A stretch of DNA of 64,000 bases from an uncultured Aquimarina sp. (GTDB lineage Bacteria; Bacteroidota; Bacteroidia; Flavobacteriales; Flavobacteriaceae). The number at the start of each line of letters is the position of its first letter. Position 1 is the first letter of the stretch. This document shows, piece after piece, positions 15,722 through 29,254 of this stretch. Made by a program: the position numbers and the translations under genes. Under the pieces are notes generated by a model. That model did no database searches and had not been told where the DNA came from. It saw only the letters and a program-made list of their open reading frames with translations. The stretch is taken from positions 1 through 64,000 of the forward strand of contig CANMKX010000001.1 in the NCBI GenBank assembly GCA_947498595.1, in the 5' to 3' direction.

Positions 15722-16435
15722 TTGACGTTTTTTATAATAATTAATATATGTGAACTTCTTGCCGCAATGGCAGGAAGTTTCTATCTGCATAAAAAGGGTG
15801 ATTATTCTAAAAAGAAAATAGATAAATTAATTGTCTATTTTTTGTGGTTTACATTTTTTAGTGAAGTAGTATTAGGATGGCCTGGTTTTTTAAACAGAGA
15901 ATTCGAAGAGCTTTCATTTCTGAAAATAATTATACCTTCAAATAATTCTTGGATATTTAATACTATCATAATAGTCAAATTCTTGATATATTCAGTTTTT
16001 TTTAAAGGGTATATTTTAAGTGTAAAATTCAAAAGAATATTGAACTTTTTAATAATAACGTTTTTAGTGACGTCAATATTAAATTTAATATTAACAGATG
16101 TTTATTTTGTTAAAATGTCTTCTTATACATATATATGCGGTTCAATATTATTGTTAACGAGTGTGTTAGCTTATTTTTATGAAATTTTAAGAAGTGATGA
16201 AATTTTAAATATTACAAAAAGTTTACCTTTTTATATTTCAATAGGGGCATTGGTTTTTCATTTATGCATGACTCCCCTGTTTATTTATACAGCATATTTT
16301 ATAACATATAGAACTCCAGACTTTTCTAATTTTTATCATTTAATTTTAACATCATGTAATATTTTTATGTATTCATGCTATAGTATAGGATTTATTGTAA
16401 CATCGAAGTTTCATAAAGAAATTAAAGTATCTTAA
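15722..16435 (+). CDS. 7-TM membrane protein, paralogue 1
   Basis: Seven hydrophobic segments; shared motif SSYTYI.GSILL...LPFYISIGALVFHLCMTPLFIY...FMYSCYSIGF. Confidence 0.8.
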   Translation: MTFFIIINICELLAAMAGSFYLHKKGDYSKKKIDKLIVYFLWFTFFSEVVLGWPGFLNREFEELSFLKIIIPSNNSWIFNTIIIVKFLIYSVFFKGYILSVKFKRILNFLIITFLVTSILNLILTDVYFVKMSSYTYICGSILLLTSVLAYFYEILRSDEILNITKSLPFYISIGALVFHLCMTPLFIYTAYFITYRTPDFSNFYHLILTSCNIFMYSCYSIGFIVTSKFHKEIKVS

Positions 16436-16448
16436 GTACATTTAAGTA

Positions 16449-17156
16449 ATGTTTTTAATAGTAATAATAAATTTTTTTGAGGTTTTAGCTGCGATAATAG
16501 GTAGTGTTTATAGTTTTAAATATCATAAAGAAAGAGGTTCTAGATATTTGATTTATTTTCTTTGGTTAACCGTATTTGTTGAAGTGTTTTTTGGATGGTT
16601 ACCATATTTTATACAAGAAAATGAATTTTTTCATTATTTAAGAGGAACTATATTAGAAAGAAACTCTTGGATTTATAATATTGAAGTTATTATTAAATTT
16701 TTATTCTATTCCTACTTTTTCTTGAGTTATATAAAAAATAAAAAAATGCGAAAAACATTGAATTATGGAATGATATTTTTTTTTATTACAACAATAATTA
16801 ATCTAATTTTTTCAAATATCTTTTTTGAAACTATATCCTCTTATACTTATATTACTGGATCTATATTATTAATGATAAGTATAGTTTTTTATTTTATGGA
16901 AATTATGAATACTGATGAGATATTATACTTTAAAAAGACATTACCTTTTTATATAGCGGTTGGAGCCTTACTTTTTCATTTAAGTATGACACCTTTATTT
17001 ATTTATAGTAGATATTATAGTAATTCCAGAAGTCCTGAATACGTAAGCATTTATAGGCTGATTTTGACTTTAGCTAATGTTTTTATGTATTCATGTTATT
17101 CGATAGGCTTTTTAGTATGCTTTAAATCAAATGATAAAACAATAAGAGGAAAATAA
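16449..17156 (+). CDS. 7-TM membrane protein, paralogue 2
   Basis: Same architecture; LPFYIAVGALLFHLSMTPLFIYS...FMYSCYSIGFLV. Confidence 0.8.
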   Translation: MFLIVIINFFEVLAAIIGSVYSFKYHKERGSRYLIYFLWLTVFVEVFFGWLPYFIQENEFFHYLRGTILERNSWIYNIEVIIKFLFYSYFFLSYIKNKKMRKTLNYGMIFFFITTIINLIFSNIFFETISSYTYITGSILLMISIVFYFMEIMNTDEILYFKKTLPFYIAVGALLFHLSMTPLFIYSRYYSNSRSPEYVSIYRLILTLANVFMYSCYSIGFLVCFKSNDKTIRGK

Positions 17157-17208
17157 TTTGATATTAATGAAAATGGAGCTAATTATTTATAATAAAGATA
17201 TTAATTAG

Positions 17209-17907
17209 ATGGTTTTTTTAAATATTTTATTTCATACAATAGAATTACTTTCTGCGATAATTGGAACTTATTTTATAAAAAAAAGATTAACAAATAATGA
17301 AACAATATATTTTGTATACTTTTTATGGTTAACAGTTTTTGTAGAAACTATAGGAATGTTACCTAGATTAATTTATTCATATGATTTTTTTAATTTTTTT
17401 GATTATAAATTGTTTTATAGCAATCAATGGTTATATAATATTTATACGATAATTTGTTTTAGTATATATATCATCTATTTTAGAGCAAGTATTATTAAAA
17501 GGATACTTAGAAATATGTTGAGTTTTTTGTTATTTATATATGTTTCAATATCAATAACATATTTTGTTGTTACAAAATCTCTTTTCGAAGTGTTTTCAAT
17601 TTTTATATTTATTTTAGGCGTAATTTTACTTCTTATAAGTATCCTATTGTATTTTTATGAGATATTAAATAACGATGTTATTTTTAAAATAACTCAAAAT
17701 TTGCCGATTTATATAGCGCTAGGAGCTTTAGTTTTTCATCTATGTGTTACGCCAATTTTTATATATGATAATTATTATATAAAATCTAGACCTAGATTTG
17801 TAGAAATTCATTCAATTATTCGCAAAATATGTATTGTTTTTATGTATTCATGTTATTCGATAGGCTTTTTAGTATGTTTAAAAAATAATGTAATAAGAAA
17901 AAAATAA
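17209..17907 (+). CDS. 7-TM membrane protein, paralogue 3
   Basis: Same architecture; LPIYIALGALVFHLCVTPIFIYD...FMYSCYSIGFLV. Confidence 0.8.
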   Translation: MVFLNILFHTIELLSAIIGTYFIKKRLTNNETIYFVYFLWLTVFVETIGMLPRLIYSYDFFNFFDYKLFYSNQWLYNIYTIICFSIYIIYFRASIIKRILRNMLSFLLFIYVSISITYFVVTKSLFEVFSIFIFILGVILLLISILLYFYEILNNDVIFKITQNLPIYIALGALVFHLCVTPIFIYDNYYIKSRPRFVEIHSIIRKICIVFMYSCYSIGFLVCLKNNVIRKK

Positions 17908-18224: not shown

Positions 18225-18425
18225 TTGTTAAACAATAATAAAGATTTAAATTTATATAAATACATAATGTTTTATATATCAATTAAAAAATTAGTATATC
18301 ATTTAGTAATCAATACCAGTATTTATTCTTTTTTTAGAATAGAATTAGTCGGTACAAATACGTTTATGTGTTTTTATATAAATAGATTTTATGTTTGTAC
18401 TTTAAAATCAATTAAAAATAAATGA
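18225..18425 (+). pseudogene. Remnant of the C-terminal half of a fifth 7-TM paralogue
   Basis: MLNNNKDLNLYKYIMFYISIKKLVYHL aligns with ILNNDVIFKITQNLPIYIALGALVFHL; NTFMCFYINRFYVCTLKSIKNK aligns with NIFMYSCYSIGFIVTSKFHKEIK. It ends in an ATGA overlap with the kinase. Confidence 0.7.
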
Positions 18426-19192
18426 AAGAACAAATATTATTAATAATCTACTTCATCATTATTATTCTTTTTTTTGTGACTTTTGGGATCATATTTGTGA
18501 TTGCTTTTCATAGAAGAAAAAATAGTTTGTTGTTAGAAAAACTAAAAGCGGAACAACGTTTTGAAGATGAATTATTAAAATCAAAAATTGAAATTCAAGA
18601 ACAAACACTTAAAAATGTAAGTTGGGAATTACATGATAATATAGGGCAACTTTTGTCTACTGCTGTGATGCAAATTAATATTTTAGGTACTTCTATTGAT
18701 AAAGGATCTTCAGAATCTTTGGCAGAAGTAAGAGAGTTAGTGGGGAGTAGTCTACAAGAAATACGTAATTTATCTAAAACGTTAAACCATGAAGTTGTTC
18801 AAAACATAGGATTGATAAAATCAATAGAAGTTGAATTAGCGCGCTTTGAAAAACTAAATTTTTTAGATACCAAATTAAATATAAAAGGAGATATAGTTCA
18901 TATAGATCCTAAAGAAGAGATCATTATATATAGAATTATTCAAGAATTTTTCTCAAATACAATAAAACATGCAGAAGCTTCTAATATGGAAGTCTCATTA
19001 GAGTATTCACCTAAAGAATTAACAATTGTAGCTAAGGATGATGGAAAAGGGTACGAAATGGATTCTGTACAAGCTAATTCAGGTCTGATAAATATGAGAA
19101 GTAGAGCTACATTGATAAATGCTACTATAGATTTTAAATCAAAAAAAGATAATGGGGTAGAAATCAATTTAGTATATCCTTTTAAAAGATGA
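18422..19192 (+). CDS. Sensor histidine kinase with a single N-terminal TM and no obvious sensor domain (HisKA_3 type)
   Basis: NVSWELHDNIGQLLSTAVMQINIL; IIYRIIQEFFSNTIKHAEASNM; AKDDGKGY...GLINMRSRATLINA. Confidence 0.9.
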   Translation: MKEQILLIIYFIIIILFFVTFGIIFVIAFHRRKNSLLLEKLKAEQRFEDELLKSKIEIQEQTLKNVSWELHDNIGQLLSTAVMQINILGTSIDKGSSESLAEVRELVGSSLQEIRNLSKTLNHEVVQNIGLIKSIEVELARFEKLNFLDTKLNIKGDIVHIDPKEEIIIYRIIQEFFSNTIKHAEASNMEVSLEYSPKELTIVAKDDGKGYEMDSVQANSGLINMRSRATLINATIDFKSKKDNGVEINLVYPFKR

Positions 19193-19225: not shown

Positions 19226-19882
19226 ATGATGAAGAAAAAATCGATTGTTATTGTAGATGATCATCTGCTGTTTGCGCAATCATTACAAGGATTAATAACT
19301 AGATATGAGGATTATGAAGTACTTGCCATTTTAAAAAACGGTAAAGAACTTACTCAATACTATTTACATAAGCGTCGTAAACCAGATCTTATATTATTGG
19401 ATGTTAAAATGCCAGTAATGAACGGTATTCAAACCATGGAATGGTTAAAAAAACACCGACCTAATCAAAAAGTGTTAGCCTTAACAATGGAAGATGATGA
19501 AGAAACGATAATCCGAATGTTAAGAGCAGGAGCAAGAGGATATTTACTTAAAGATATACATCCAGATAATTTTGAGTTTGCTTTGAAAATGGTAATAGAA
19601 CAAGGGTTCTATTATTCATCAAAAATAGAAAGCGCTTTAAAAGCATCTGAAGGAATTGAGAATAGCGAGAAGCAATTAGCACAGAAATTAACTGAAAAAG
19701 AGTTGATCTTTTTAAAACAAGCATGTACAGAAAAAACCTATAAAGATATAGCAGTAGAACTTAATTTAAGCCCTAAAACTATAGAGAATTATAGAGAAAC
19801 GGTGTTTAAAAAACTACAAGTTCGAACTAGAGTAGGAGCTGTAATATATTGTATGAAATATAAATTATTTAAAGTAGATTGA
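19226..19882 (+). CDS. NarL/FixJ-family response regulator
   Basis: IVDDHLLFAQSL, LILLDVKMPVMNG, KTIENYRETVFKKLQVRTRV (LuxR HTH). Confidence 0.93.
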   Translation: MMKKKSIVIVDDHLLFAQSLQGLITRYEDYEVLAILKNGKELTQYYLHKRRKPDLILLDVKMPVMNGIQTMEWLKKHRPNQKVLALTMEDDEETIIRMLRAGARGYLLKDIHPDNFEFALKMVIEQGFYYSSKIESALKASEGIENSEKQLAQKLTEKELIFLKQACTEKTYKDIAVELNLSPKTIENYRETVFKKLQVRTRVGAVIYCMKYKLFKVD

Positions 19883-19889
19883 AAAAAAG

Positions 19890-19921
19890 TTGGATATCTT
19901 AAAAAAATATACATACATTTG
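19890..19921 (+). promoter_or_regulatory. Candidate Bacteroidota promoter for the ilv leader region
   Basis: TTG at 19890-19892 and TACATTTG (TAnnTTTG) at 19914-19921; leader ATG at 19930, implying a very short 5' UTR. Confidence 0.6.
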
Positions 19922-19929
19922 TGCTAACA

Positions 19930-19992
19930 ATGAATAAGACAAAACAAAATAGTATTAATGTCATTAATATTGAGGTGATTATTTCATCTTAA
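19930..19992 (+). CDS. Leader peptide 1 for the ilv operon (20 aa)
   Basis: MNKTKQNSINVINIEVIISS*: 5 Ile and 2 Val in 20 residues; followed by antiterminator segment and terminator. Confidence 0.8.
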   Translation: MNKTKQNSINVINIEVIISS

Positions 19993-19993
19993 G

Positions 19994-20060
19994 AAAGGGA
20001 CGTATACGCTATTTTTAATAATATATAATCCCTTTACAATTAGTAAAGGGATTTTTTTTT
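19994..20060 (+). promoter_or_regulatory. Attenuator 1: AAAGGGA (19994-20000) can pair with TCCCTTT (20029-20035), competing with terminator 20027-20053
   Basis: Terminator stem AATCCCTTTA-caattag-TAAAGGGATT plus T-tract; the 5' AAAGGGA starts 2 nt after the leader stop. Confidence 0.8.
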
Positions 20061-20073
20061 ATCATAAATCGAA

Positions 20074-20139
20074 ATGAATTTAAAGAACGCAATTATAATT
20101 AATGTCATTAGTATTATTGAGGTGATTATTTCACCTTGA
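20074..20139 (+). CDS. Leader peptide 2 for the ilv operon (21 aa)
   Basis: MNLKNAIIINVISIIEVIISP*: 8 Ile and 2 Val in 21 residues; homologous to leader 1. Confidence 0.8.
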   Translation: MNLKNAIIINVISIIEVIISP

Positions 20140-20200
20140 TGAAGGGCATTATTATATATATGATTAATAAACCCTTTGTAATTACAAAGGGTTTTTTGTT
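20139..20200 (+). promoter_or_regulatory. Attenuator 2: ATGAAGGG (20139-20146) can pair with CCCTTTGT (20172-20179), competing with terminator 20169-20194
   Basis: Perfect palindrome AAACCCTTTGTAA/TTACAAAGGGTTT followed by T-rich sequence. Confidence 0.8.
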
Positions 20201-20442
20201 TTCAAGAAGAAACAATATTAGATAAATAAGAATTACTTATTGTAAAATATTTAAATGTAAATTATTGATTTTAAGATATTTAAATTGTTTTGTTAGCAAT
20301 GTGGATATTGTAACTTACTATTAAATTCGTAAAGATTGATAATCATTAAAAATAAATTTACAGATCATATTGATATAGGTTATGATATTGTTAGAATTAA
20401 ATATAAAAAAATAACAATACAGTAAAAGAAGAAGTAAATAAA

Positions 20443-22119
20443 ATGAAATTGAACAAATATAGTACCCAAGTAACTCAAGATGATACCCAACCTGCAGCAC
20501 AAGCGATGCTACATGCAATTGGATTAACAAGTGAAGATTTAAAAAAACCGTTGATCGGTATTGCAAGTACAGGATATGAAGGAAACCCATGTAATATGCA
20601 TTTAAATGATCTGGCAAAATTAGTGAAAAAAGGGACTTACAATGTTGATTTAATAGGATTGATCTTTAATACTATTGGAGTAAGCGATGGTATTTCAATG
20701 GGAACGCCAGGAATGCGCTTTTCATTACCATCAAGAGATGTTATTGCAGACTCAATGGAAACCGTAGTTCAGGCTATGTCATACGATGGTATGGTAACCG
20801 TTGTTGGATGTGATAAAAACATGCCAGGAGCATTAATGGCAATGCTAAGGTTAAACAGACCATCAATATTGGTATATGGAGGAACTATAGCTTCAGGTTG
20901 TCATGAAGGAAAAAAATTAGATGTTGTATCTGCATTCGAGGCTTGGGGAGAGAAAGTTGCAGGGAAAATTGAAGAAGAAGAATATCAAAATGTTATCGAG
21001 AAAGCCTGTCCCGGAGCAGGTGCATGTGGAGGGATGTATACAGCCAATACAATGGCATCAGCGATAGAAGCATTAGGGATGTCATTACCTTATAACTCAT
21101 CCAATCCAGCAATAAGTGACGATAAAGAAAAAGAAAGTATCAAAGCTGGAGAAGCATTACGAGTTTTATTAGAAAAAGATATAAAGCCTAAAGATATAGT
21201 AACTAAAAAATCATTAGAAAATGCTATTCGTTTAGTTACTGTTTTAGGAGGATCTACGAATGCAGTATTACACTTTTTAGCTATAGCAAGAGCTGCAGAC
21301 GTAAAATTTACATTAGAAGATTTTCAGAGAATTAGCGATGAAACTCCATTTCTAGCAGATTTAAAACCAAGTGGTAAATATCTAATGGAAGATATTCATG
21401 AAATTGGAGGAATACCCGCAGTATTAAAGTACTTATTAAAAGAAGGAATGCTTCATGGAGATTGTTTAACAGTTACAGGAAAAACATTAGCAGAAAACCT
21501 GAAAAATGTAAAAGATTTAGACCCAAACCAAGATGTTATCAAACCAATAAACCAGCCTATAAAAGAAACAGGGCATTTAAGAATCATGTTCGGAAATTTA
21601 GCAAAAGATGGTTGTGTTGCTAAAATAACAGGAAAAGAAGGACTTCGCTTTGAAGGTAAAGCAAAAGTATTTGAAGGAGAGTACGAAGCTAATGATGGTA
21701 TTAGACAAGGTAAAGTTAGCAAAGGTGATGTTGTTGTAATACGATATGAAGGTCCAAAAGGAGGACCTGGAATGCCAGAAATGTTGAAGCCTACCGCTGC
21801 AATTATGGGAGCTGGGCTAGGGAAAGATGTAGCTTTAATAACTGATGGTAGATTTTCGGGAGGAACCCATGGATTTGTTGTCGGGCATATTACACCAGAA
21901 GCTCAAGATGGAGGAATGATAGCTTTAGTTAAAGATAATGATCATATAATAATTGATGCAGAAAAAAACAGCATTACAGTTGCTATTGATGAAGATGAAC
22001 TTAACGAAAGAAAATTAGCATGGAAACAACCGCCTCTTAAATTTAAACGAGGAGTATTATATAAATATGCACATACCGTATCATCAGCTTCAAAAGGCTG
22101 TGTAACAGATGAATTTTAA
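20443..22119 (+). CDS. ilvD: Dihydroxy-acid dehydratase
   Basis: [55 protein letters not shown]. Confidence 0.97.
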
Positions 22120-26056: not shown

Positions 26057-27319
26057 ATGAATACTACAACTACATACTTCCCTGAAATAAAAGATATAAG
26101 AGCTGCAGCAGATAGAATTCAAACTGTAGCAGAAAAAACACCACTGCAGCAAAATATTAGGTATTCAAAAAAATATGAAACAAATGTTTTACTAAAAAGA
26201 GAAGACTTACAAAAAGTTAGATCTTATAAAATTAGAGGAGCATATAATAAAATAAGCTCTCTAACAGTAGACGAATTAAATAGAGGGATTGTATGTGCAA
26301 GTGCAGGGAATCACGCACAAGGTGTAGCATTTGCATGCGCTGAGTTGAAAATTAAAGGTACAATTTATATGCCCACTGTAACTCCGAAACAAAAAATTGA
26401 ACAAACGAAAATGTTTGGAGGAGATTATGTAGAAATTGTATTAGAAGGAGATACTTTTGATGACGCATCAAAAATAGCAAAAGAAAAATGTTTACTATAT
26501 GATAAAACATTTGTACATCCTTTTGATGACCCTAAAATTATAGAAGGACAAGGGACTATAGGTTTAGAGATAATAGAACAAACGCCAGTATCTATAGATT
26601 ATGTATTTGTCCCAATAGGAGGAGGAGGATTAGCTTCGGGAATATGTAGTGTTTTAAAAAACATTTCCCCAACAACCAAAATAATAGGGGTAGAGCCAAA
26701 AGGAGCTCCGTCAATGTCAACATCAATAAAAAAAGGATATAATACAGAAGTATTCGATCTTGATAAATTTATCGATGGAGCAGCAGTACAAAGAGTAGGA
26801 GATTATAATTTTCATATTTGTAATAAAGAGCTATCAAAAGTAATAACAGTACCAGAAGGACTTGTTTGTCAAACCATATTGGATTTATACAATAGAGAAG
26901 CGATAGTAGTTGAACCAGCTGGAGCTTTAACAATAGCAGCTTTAGAACTTTATAAAGAAGAAATAAAAGGGAAAAATGTTGTTTGTATTGTAAGTGGGAG
27001 TAATAACGATATTACGAGAACTGCAGAAATCAAAGAAAGAGCTTTGCTATATGCAAAATTAAAACATTACTTCATTATTAGGTTTCCACAACGAGCAGGA
27101 GCATTGAAAGAGTTTGTAGGTGAAGTCTTGGGGCCTACTGATGATATAACTCATTTTGAATATTCAAAAAAATCTAGTAGAGAAAATGGACCAGCAGTAG
27201 TGGGTATTGAATTGAAGAATGAGCGTGACTTAGAGTCGTTACTTTTAAGAATGAAAAAACATAATTTCTATGGAGATTATTTAAATGATAAACCAAATCT
27301 TTTTCAATTTTTAATTTAA
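26057..27319 (+). CDS. ilvA: Threonine ammonia-lyase (threonine deaminase), biosynthetic
   Basis: REDLQKVRSYKIRGAYNKI, GGGGLASGI; C-terminal ACT-like region. Confidence 0.95.
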   Translation: MNTTTTYFPEIKDIRAAADRIQTVAEKTPLQQNIRYSKKYETNVLLKREDLQKVRSYKIRGAYNKISSLTVDELNRGIVCASAGNHAQGVAFACAELKIKGTIYMPTVTPKQKIEQTKMFGGDYVEIVLEGDTFDDASKIAKEKCLLYDKTFVHPFDDPKIIEGQGTIGLEIIEQTPVSIDYVFVPIGGGGLASGICSVLKNISPTTKIIGVEPKGAPSMSTSIKKGYNTEVFDLDKFIDGAAVQRVGDYNFHICNKELSKVITVPEGLVCQTILDLYNREAIVVEPAGALTIAALELYKEEIKGKNVVCIVSGSNNDITRTAEIKERALLYAKLKHYFIIRFPQRAGALKEFVGEVLGPTDDITHFEYSKKSSRENGPAVVGIELKNERDLESLLLRMKKHNFYGDYLNDKPNLFQFLI

Positions 27320-27401: not shown

Positions 27402-28625
27402 TTATAATGCTGAGGCTTCAGTTTTTAAAATACCAATTTCTTCCATACAAGATTTCATGGCCAGGTATGTACGTTCAATGTTATTGTCTAAACCGATAGA
27501 GAAACGAATCAAACCATCTGTTAATCCCATATCTTTTTGCTCTTCTAAAGGTATTTCAGAAGAAGTAGATGTTCCAGGAGCACTGAATAACGTTTTATAA
27601 AAACCTAAACTTACTGCTAAGTAACCTAAATTACGATTCTGCATTAATTCCATTAACTCATTAGCCTTATCTAATGAACCTACATCTATAGTAAGCATTC
27701 CTCCATAACCATACTCTGGATTCATCATTTTTGTATAAACTTCATGACTAGGATGAGATGTTAATCCTGGATATACAGTTTTTAGACCATCTGCTTCGAA
27801 TTTTTTAGCCAAATACATAGCATTGGTACTATGTTGTTTTATACGAATATGAAGCGTACGTAAATTTTTTAATACAGATGAAGCTCTTAAACTGTCCATT
27901 GTGGGGCCTAATAGCATACTAGCACCATCATTAACATTACGTAAAGAATCTATAAAATCTTGAGTACCACAAGTTACACCTCCAACAGTATCACTACTAC
28001 CATTAATAAATTTAGTTAAGCTGTGTATTATAACATCAGCTCCAAGTTTAGCAGGAGAAATTGATAAAGGAGAGAAAGTGTTATCTACAACAAGTTTTAG
28101 ATTGTGCTTTTTAGCTAGCGCAGCTAATGCCTCAAGATCTGCAACTTCTAAAAGTGGATTACTAACCGTTTCACAATATAATACTTTTGTGTTTTCGTTA
28201 ATAGCTGCTTCAACAATAGCCAATTTAGTAATATCGACAAAACTTGTTTGAATGTTTAATCTAGGAGCAAAGTTTTTTAAGAAAGCATAAGTTCCTCCGT
28301 ATATAGTTCGACTAGAAACGATATGATCTCCTGCTTGGCATAATTGTAGAATAGTAGGAGTAATAGCTCCCATACCACTTGCCGCAACATTTGCAGTTTC
28401 TGTTCCTTCCATTGCAGCTAATGCTTCTCCTAAATGTAAATTTGAAGGAGTAGAATGTCTAGAATATAAATAACAACCGTCTGTATTACCTTCAAAAGTA
28501 TCAAACATGGTCTTTGCAGATAAAAATGTATAGGTTGATGAATCGGATATAGAAGGATTTACTCCTCCAAATTCACCAAAATATTGTAAATCTTGAATTT
28601 CATCGGCTGGGTTAAAAATTGACAT
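27402..28625 (-). CDS. Cys/Met-metabolism PLP enzyme (methionine gamma-lyase / cystathionine gamma-synthase-like)
   Basis: YSRHSTPSNLHLGEALAAMEGTE; VVDNTFSPLSISPAKLGADVIIHSLTKFINGSSDTVGG. Confidence 0.92.
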   Translation of the reverse strand: MSIFNPADEIQDLQYFGEFGGVNPSISDSSTYTFLSAKTMFDTFEGNTDGCYLYSRHSTPSNLHLGEALAAMEGTETANVAASGMGAITPTILQLCQAGDHIVSSRTIYGGTYAFLKNFAPRLNIQTSFVDITKLAIVEAAINENTKVLYCETVSNPLLEVADLEALAALAKKHNLKLVVDNTFSPLSISPAKLGADVIIHSLTKFINGSSDTVGGVTCGTQDFIDSLRNVNDGASMLLGPTMDSLRASSVLKNLRTLHIRIKQHSTNAMYLAKKFEADGLKTVYPGLTSHPSHEVYTKMMNPEYGYGGMLTIDVGSLDKANELMELMQNRNLGYLAVSLGFYKTLFSAPGTSTSSEIPLEEQKDMGLTDGLIRFSIGLDNNIERTYLAMKSCMEEIGILKTEASAL

Positions 28626-28795: not shown

Positions 28796-29254
28796 ATGAT
28801 ATTAGATGTTATAGATAAAAAAATTCTTCAAATATTACAGAACGATAGTAAAAAGACAACAAAAGAAGTCGCGAATCAACTAAATTTATCTGTTACGGCA
28901 ATTTATGAACGAATAAAAAAGTTAGAAAGAGAAGGAGTAATAGAAAGATATGTTGCACTTGTTGATAAAGAAAAAATTCAAAAATCCTTTGTCGTTTTTT
29001 GTCACATAAAATTAACGCAGCATACTAAAGATTATTTAACAAAATTTGAAAAACAAGTTACTCAGTTAGATGAAGTACAAGAGTGTTATCATGTAAGTGG
29101 AGATTATGACTATATATTAAAAATTTATGTTACAGACATGAAAGAATATAGAGAGTTTATGGTAACCAAATTAACTACGTTGAATCATATAGGAAGTACA
29201 CATAGTACTTTTATGATAAATGAAGTTAAAAAAACTACAGCTATTCAACTATAA
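28796..29254 (+). CDS. Lrp/AsnC family transcriptional regulator
   Basis: ILDVIDKKILQILQNDSKKTTKEVANQLNLSVTAIYERIKKLEREGVIERYVALVD; RAM-like C-terminal domain. Confidence 0.94.
   Translation: MILDVIDKKILQILQNDSKKTTKEVANQLNLSVTAIYERIKKLEREGVIERYVALVDKEKIQKSFVVFCHIKLTQHTKDYLTKFEKQVTQLDEVQECYHVSGDYDYILKIYVTDMKEYREFMVTKLTTLNHIGSTHSTFMINEVKKTTAIQL

Follow-up and report, generated by a model that had tools for sequence, protein, structure and literature searches.

The classical leader-peptide attenuators are those of the Escherichia coli ilvGMEDA, ilvBN, trp and his operons. The ilv leader of Aquimarina described here resembles them in that an open reading frame (ORF) carrying codons for the pathway's products, competing 1:2, 2:3 and 3:4 hairpins and an intrinsic terminator precede a biosynthetic operon, but it differs in having two complete units for the same amino acids in series, in belonging to another phylum, in the spacing of just 8-11 nt between the -7 element and the start of leader 1 and in having hardly any Leu codons. 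Salmonella mgtCBR is another operon with two leader ORFs on a single leader mRNA, each of which influences whether transcription enters the operon; its tandem ORFs mgtM and mgtP sense ATP and proline and were presented by their authors as a singular example (PMC3641672). The Aquimarina leader likewise holds two leader ORFs in what its single promoter-like element suggests to be one transcript; unlike mgtCBR, whose signals differ, both of its leaders carry Ile and Val codons, and each unit has its own terminator. In the same paper the contrast to mgtCBR is metE, in the leader of which two sites are expected to work as intrinsic terminators (PMC3641672), and the Bacillus clausii metE tandem riboswitches are cited there as binding SAM and B12; as described in that citation, these too are two serial terminator-bearing sensors, but they are ligand-binding, respond to different signals and involve no leader peptide. 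The Corynebacterium ilvB-II motif and other actinobacterial ilvB leaders combine an upstream ORF containing branched-chain codons with a terminator before ilvB, in another phylum and with an operon order other than that of Aquimarina, and no tandem unit is described for them (PMC10272879, PMC1262725). In Streptomyces coelicolor, swapping of the candidate control codons before ilvB is cited as having had no effect (cited in PMC1262725), so that attenuator look-alikes need not work.

Within the family to which Aquimarina belongs, hints of leader-peptide attenuation upstream of amino-acid operons come from a study of Flavobacterium psychrophilum whose main text mentions no ilv or tandem unit (PMC9723704). 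A first-pass annotation of the DNA analysed here had named Proteobacteria as the group in which attenuation of ilv operons is established, to which this earlier suggestion from the Flavobacteriaceae has to be added. It had also called two attenuators in tandem unusual for Bacteroidota. That judgement survives in part: a survey of the open-access literature, outside which most subscription journals lie, turned up no description of same-signal leader-peptide attenuators arranged in series, but the arrangement proved to be genus-wide and to recur in about ten other genera, and mgtCBR is a tandem precedent (PMC3641672). Each unit, then, is classical, and the same-signal pair in series is, as far as we found, undescribed. 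Most known cases of leader-peptide attenuation have one unit per operon, and a conserved pair reading the same signal asks what the second unit buys, possible gains being a lower leak, a steeper response and noise control.

The window, by which we mean the entire 64,000-nt stretch analysed (contig CANMKX010000001.1, positions 1 to 64,000, from an uncultured Aquimarina sp.), contains an ilvD gene whose product is 84-88% identical to IlvD of Aquimarina species, both named and unnamed, and the genome falls within that genus. The genes that follow ilvD, up to position 27319, we take to be ilvB, ilvN, ilvC and ilvA. Both Ile/Val-rich micro-ORFs reported by the first-pass annotation are present before ilvD with the peptides given for them (Table 1), as are the A, B and C segments and T-runs described after each ORF; the two terminators are strong intrinsic ones, and the leader cores, which had been called nearly identical, share 79% identity over 58 nt.

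Table 1. Positions of the predicted regulatory elements before ilvD in the window, and of the trpE attenuator of the same genome.
Feature	Position	Strand	Basis or remark
Intergenic gap before ilvD	response regulator end 19882 to ilvD start 20443		holds both micro-ORFs
P1, promoter-like element: TTG (19890)-N21-TACATTTG (19914-19921)	19890-19921	+	sequence; Bacteroidota-type -33/-7
Leader peptide 1 ORF, MNKTKQNSINVINIEVIISS*	19930-19992	+	sequence; conserved in Aquimarina
Hairpin 1:2 of attenuator 1: 19970-19978 with 19984-19992	19970-19992	+	folding, covariation; at ORF end, Ile codons in loop
Segment A1, AAAGGGA, putative antiterminator 5' side	19994-20000	+	sequence, pairing
Terminator 1: B1:C1 hairpin 20027-20053 (dG -13.9 kcal/mol), then T-run	20027-20060	+	B1 (TCCCTTT) and C1 (AAAGGGA) both inside the hairpin
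Leader peptide 2 ORF, MNLKNAIIINVISIIEVIISP*	20074-20139	+	sequence; conserved in Aquimarina
Hairpin 1:2 of attenuator 2: 20114-20125 with 20131-20142	20114-20142	+	folding, covariation; overlaps 5' end of A2
Segment A2, ATGAAGGG, putative antiterminator 5' side	20139-20146	+	first base is last base of stop codon
Terminator 2: B2:C2 hairpin 20169-20194 (dG -13.2 kcal/mol), then T-run	20169-20203	+	B2 (CCCTTTGT) and C2 (ACAAAGGG) both inside the hairpin
P2, possible second promoter: boxes ATTGTAA (20239) and ATTGTAA (20307), -7-like TAAATTTA (20353-20360)	20239-20360	+	after both attenuators, before ilvD
ilvD, first gene of the putatively controlled operon	20443-22119	+	ORF list; IlvD relatives
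trpE attenuator, window genome	L195:3163-3284		other genomes L196-L225

The codon content of the leaders points to the signal that they would read. Per about 20 leader codons there are 6-7 for Ile and 2-3 for Val, compared with about 2.6 and 1.0 after the same ORFs are shuffled (leader 1, Ile 6.14 vs 2.59 and Val 2.29 vs 0.91; leader 2, Ile 7.13 vs 2.71 and Val 3.06 vs 1.05), an enrichment that is biased upwards because leader ORFs were picked by an Ile/Val threshold. Two further features lie outside what the detector selects for: the depletion of Leu (0.31 vs 2.13 in leader 1 and 0.58 vs 2.54 in leader 2) and Phe (0 vs 1.0 in leader 1) relative to the same shuffles, and the pattern of conserved columns, the best-kept of which are mostly Ile or Val. 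Since Leu codons are nearly absent, we rejected Leu as the sensed amino acid, which leaves Ile and Val, the direct products, as the signal. Different signals for the two units were likewise rejected, because both leaders have the same codon content with Ile and Val in matching columns, a comparison that concerns codons only.

Folding of the region revealed competing structures in each unit. A terminator scan returned 3 sites in 1.1 kb, where shuffles predict 0.2; two lie on the plus strand and the third is the opposite-strand reading of the first. The B arm is common to the A:B and B:C pairings, making them mutually exclusive, and in the window A:B folds (-8.6 and -9.8 kcal/mol) are possible but weaker than B:C (about -14 kcal/mol), so that B:C should win except where A is available for pairing as B emerges. 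The position of A relative to the stop codon is tightly kept, its GGG core lying at -1 to +4 nt from the stop-codon end in 64/64 anchored Aquimarina units. Within its own unit the A:B duplex averages -9.33 kcal/mol, compared with -7.06 +/- 0.19 kcal/mol for permuted partners (all 114 units) and -4.16 for shuffled A; this signal resides mostly between classes, A, B and C changing together across genera (CCCTTT, CCTTCC and CTGTATC classes), and own-versus-swapped comparisons within one class are weak, given how little the sequences vary there, with p values of 0.02-0.05 for three classes and 0.40 for Aq2. At position -3 the A:B pair is A-U in 13 units but G-C in 17, and the B:C pair is A-U in 33 but G-C in 29.

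The first-pass annotation had described three alternating segments per unit; the competing A, B and C segments are there, but the units comprise four, as a conserved hairpin 1:2 in the 3' part of each leader had been missed. Its mean dG is -10.4 and -9.4 in the two copies, compared with -4.6 and -5.0 for shuffled sequences. Over both copies in 29 species, 87.7% of its cells are paired vs 81.1 +/- 0.8 after shuffling, a count inflated by the relatedness of the species, and double changes number 59 vs 19 +/- 6.4. Six of its 11 pairs have changed on both sides, and pairing collapses when the alignment is slid by one column.

Comparison across the Flavobacteriaceae, which the first-pass annotation had proposed as a check on leader codons and compensatory changes, brought out both, the former in the Aquimarina-type loci described below and the latter in hairpin 1:2. 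The sample consisted of 160 distinct ilvD upstream regions, and a unit was called where a terminator had, at most 80 nt upstream, an ORF of 13-34 aa with at least 5 Ile/Val and 35% Ile/Val/Leu. By this detector two or more units occur in 41 regions, one in 33 and none in 86, and both units are found in 31/35 Aquimarina-type loci, with two further tandem loci (L033 and L043) recognised on inspection. Outside Aquimarina the tandem state was found at 10 loci (L042, L062, L101, L103, L143, L146, L147, L148, L154 and L180), among them those of Tenacibaculum agarivorans (L042) and Bizionia arctica (L062). The loci L108 and L109 also have a tandem appearance, with no first leader recognised. The detector never called two units in the reverse complements of the 160 regions. 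A single unit was found at three Aquimarina loci, two with copy 1 only (L032 and L174) and one with copy 2 only (L049), and the Aquimarina relatives L029 (G003), L171 (G005) and L172 (G007) have no ilv attenuator; two units are therefore not essential, and the genus offers a natural comparison set of species with two units, one unit (either copy) or none.

The sequence features of trp-, his- and ilv-type attenuators (an ORF with product codons, a terminator, an antiterminator, the placement of the stop codon and hairpin 1:2) are all found in this leader, and the ribosome-mediated attenuation put forward in the first-pass annotation fits the codon bias, the location of A beside the stop codon, the exclusivity of A:B and B:C, the covariation in hairpin 1:2, the placement before ilvD and behind a single promoter-like element, and the conservation. 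We consider it likely that one ilvDBNCA leader transcript carries two complete classical ribosome-mediated attenuators in series, both reading charged Ile- and Val-tRNA. Reading anatomy, conservation, codon bias, covariation and geometry from the sequence, we infer stalling, termination, multiplication in series and the dominant amino acid along the following lines. A ribosome at the stop codon would cover segment A, the B:C terminator would form and RNA polymerase would halt. When Ile- or Val-tRNA is scarce, the ribosome would instead stall on Ile/Val codons a few codons earlier, within hairpin 1:2 on its 5' arm or its loop, leaving A free to pair with B, so that the terminator would be blocked and polymerase would continue. 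From P1, ilvD would be reached only by escaping both units, so that read-through would approximate the two escape probabilities multiplied together, and serial units would thus give lower basal expression and a steeper and wider response than one unit.

The action of both units in series depends on where transcription starts. The -7 element of P1 lies 8 nt before the leader 1 ATG in the window, and TATATTT[GA] is found 8-11 nt before this ATG in nearly all Aquimarina relatives. Upstream of leader 2, whose ATG lies 70-168 nt after stop 1, no TAnnTTTG is present in most species, which led us to reject a separate leader 2 promoter. With a single promoter-like element, located before leader 1, both units should act in series. 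Judging from the predicted transcription start, translation of leader 1 is probably close to leaderless, its ORF beginning almost at the 5' end of the mRNA, and leader 2 probably uses an internal start. Bacteroidota ribosomes rely little on Shine-Dalgarno sequences.

Between attenuator 2 and ilvD, however, lies the module P2, which raises the alternative that the units act on a minor transcript while most ilv expression comes from P2 through a factor common to leuA. In this conserved module a pair of RTTGTA boxes is spaced 67 nt apart (68 nt for the copy in the window) and a -7-like TAnnTTTA follows after about another 46 nt, and at least two RTTGTA boxes occur in 38/42 ilv loci, including those of attenuator-free species. 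Upstream of leuA a box pair 67 nt apart is present in 21/21 Aquimarina genomes (L194 and L237-L256), followed 46-47 nt after the second box by a -7-like TAnnTT[CT]G, which reads TAAATTCG in 19 genomes and TACATTTG in 2. We looked for an attenuator upstream of leuA in the window genome and found none. P2 is probably a factor-controlled branched-chain amino-acid promoter common to ilv and leu, and transcripts from it may bypass both attenuators. It is nevertheless a prediction, whose -7 element is degenerate in the window genome (TAAATTTA), and a whole-genome pattern search for the module gave 11 matches vs 6 in the control, too unspecific to define a regulon; moreover, leader coding and pairing persist, where decay would be expected if attenuation hardly mattered. 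A minor role for the attenuated transcript is compatible with serial attenuation, which would then matter less, and strikes us as rather improbable, though it is the most serious of the alternatives. A possible candidate for the factor binding the RTTGTA boxes is an Lrp/AsnC-type regulator. Just downstream of the ilv operon in the window is what we take to be a gene for such a regulator (28796-29254), beside a presumed methionine gamma-lyase-like gene (27402-28625).

The history of the two copies bears on whether both work. Across Aquimarina species, core identity is 0.775 between copies 1, 0.75 between copies 2 and 0.72 between copy 1 and copy 2, so the duplication is probably older than most of the genus. 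One might suppose that a single unit works and that its partner is a duplicate, neutral or in decay, whose terminator does no more than reduce basal transcription, as the existence of single-unit species retaining either copy (copy 1 in A. algicola, copy 2 in A. pacifica) and the identity of 72% between copies 1 and 2, the same within and between species, would allow. We regard this as unlikely, given that in about 30 species both copies retain start, stop and Ile/Val codons, with pooled pN/pS values of 0.58 for leader 1 and 0.64 for leader 2, together with the stop-to-A spacing, hairpin 1:2 and the terminator.

The pairing alphabets of the units also differ. In Aquimarina the B arms read CCCTTT in copy 1 and CCCTTC in copy 2; in other genera GCCTTCC marks the first or only unit and CCTGTATC the second (in a few, the only) unit, and segment A matches the alphabet, being GGAAGG-like with GCCTTCC and TGATACAG-like with CCTGTATC. 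Non-Aquimarina tandems keep a fixed order, GCCTTCC-like and then CCTGTATC, and the two alphabets hardly cross-pair. Compared by core, both Aquimarina copies stand closer to the GCCTTCC class (identity 0.68, against 0.61 for the CCTGTATC class). This disfavours copy 2 as an orthologue of the CCTGTATC unit and makes two duplications or a replacement likelier; the tandem state may have had two or more origins, or a replacement of one unit may have occurred, a choice for which 58-nt segments are too short. The odds seem to us evenly balanced that same-signal serial attenuators are an old, selected ilv architecture of the Flavobacteriaceae, which would multiply termination and give a steep, wide-range response, and whose alphabets would have diverged in several genera for independent action.

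Serial attenuation driven by translation has also to be set against a ligand- or tRNA-binding RNA of the T-box or riboswitch kind, which any terminator/antiterminator pair could in principle serve. Such an RNA is very improbable here, for the conserved part is an ORF with in-frame Ile/Val codons, no Rfam family reached its cut-off in the window and nothing of the T-box or riboswitch type appeared at relaxed thresholds; the leader families RF04312 (trpB motif, 30.0 against 59 bits) and RF00514 (His_leader, 26.6 against 49) scored below their gathering cut-offs. Chance can practically be dismissed: Ile codons, themselves AT-rich, and hairpins arise easily in AT-rich intergenic DNA such as this, but dinucleotide shuffles of the 160 regions gave two units in 0/480 cases and one unit in 3/480, and the leaders have more Ile and Val, and less Leu and Phe, than shuffles of matched composition would give.

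The trp operon appears to provide an internal positive control, indicating from its sequence that leader-peptide attenuation is present elsewhere in these genomes: one attenuator with a WWW leader peptide (for example MNLILTNTWWWKSQNERS) precedes trpE in 30/30 Aquimarina genomes. As trp has exactly one unit, doubling is not a general habit and is peculiar to ilv among the operons checked against it (trp and leu). Classical-looking attenuation of both ilv and trp is thereby placed in Bacteroidota. As to the surroundings of the ilv leader, directly before it come genes for a histidine kinase (18422-19192) and for a response regulator (19226-19882), and in several relatives a similar regulator C-terminus precedes ilvD. 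Further upstream, at 15722-17907, the window holds three tandem, similar-looking ORFs of 232-237 aa, which are membrane-protein-like.
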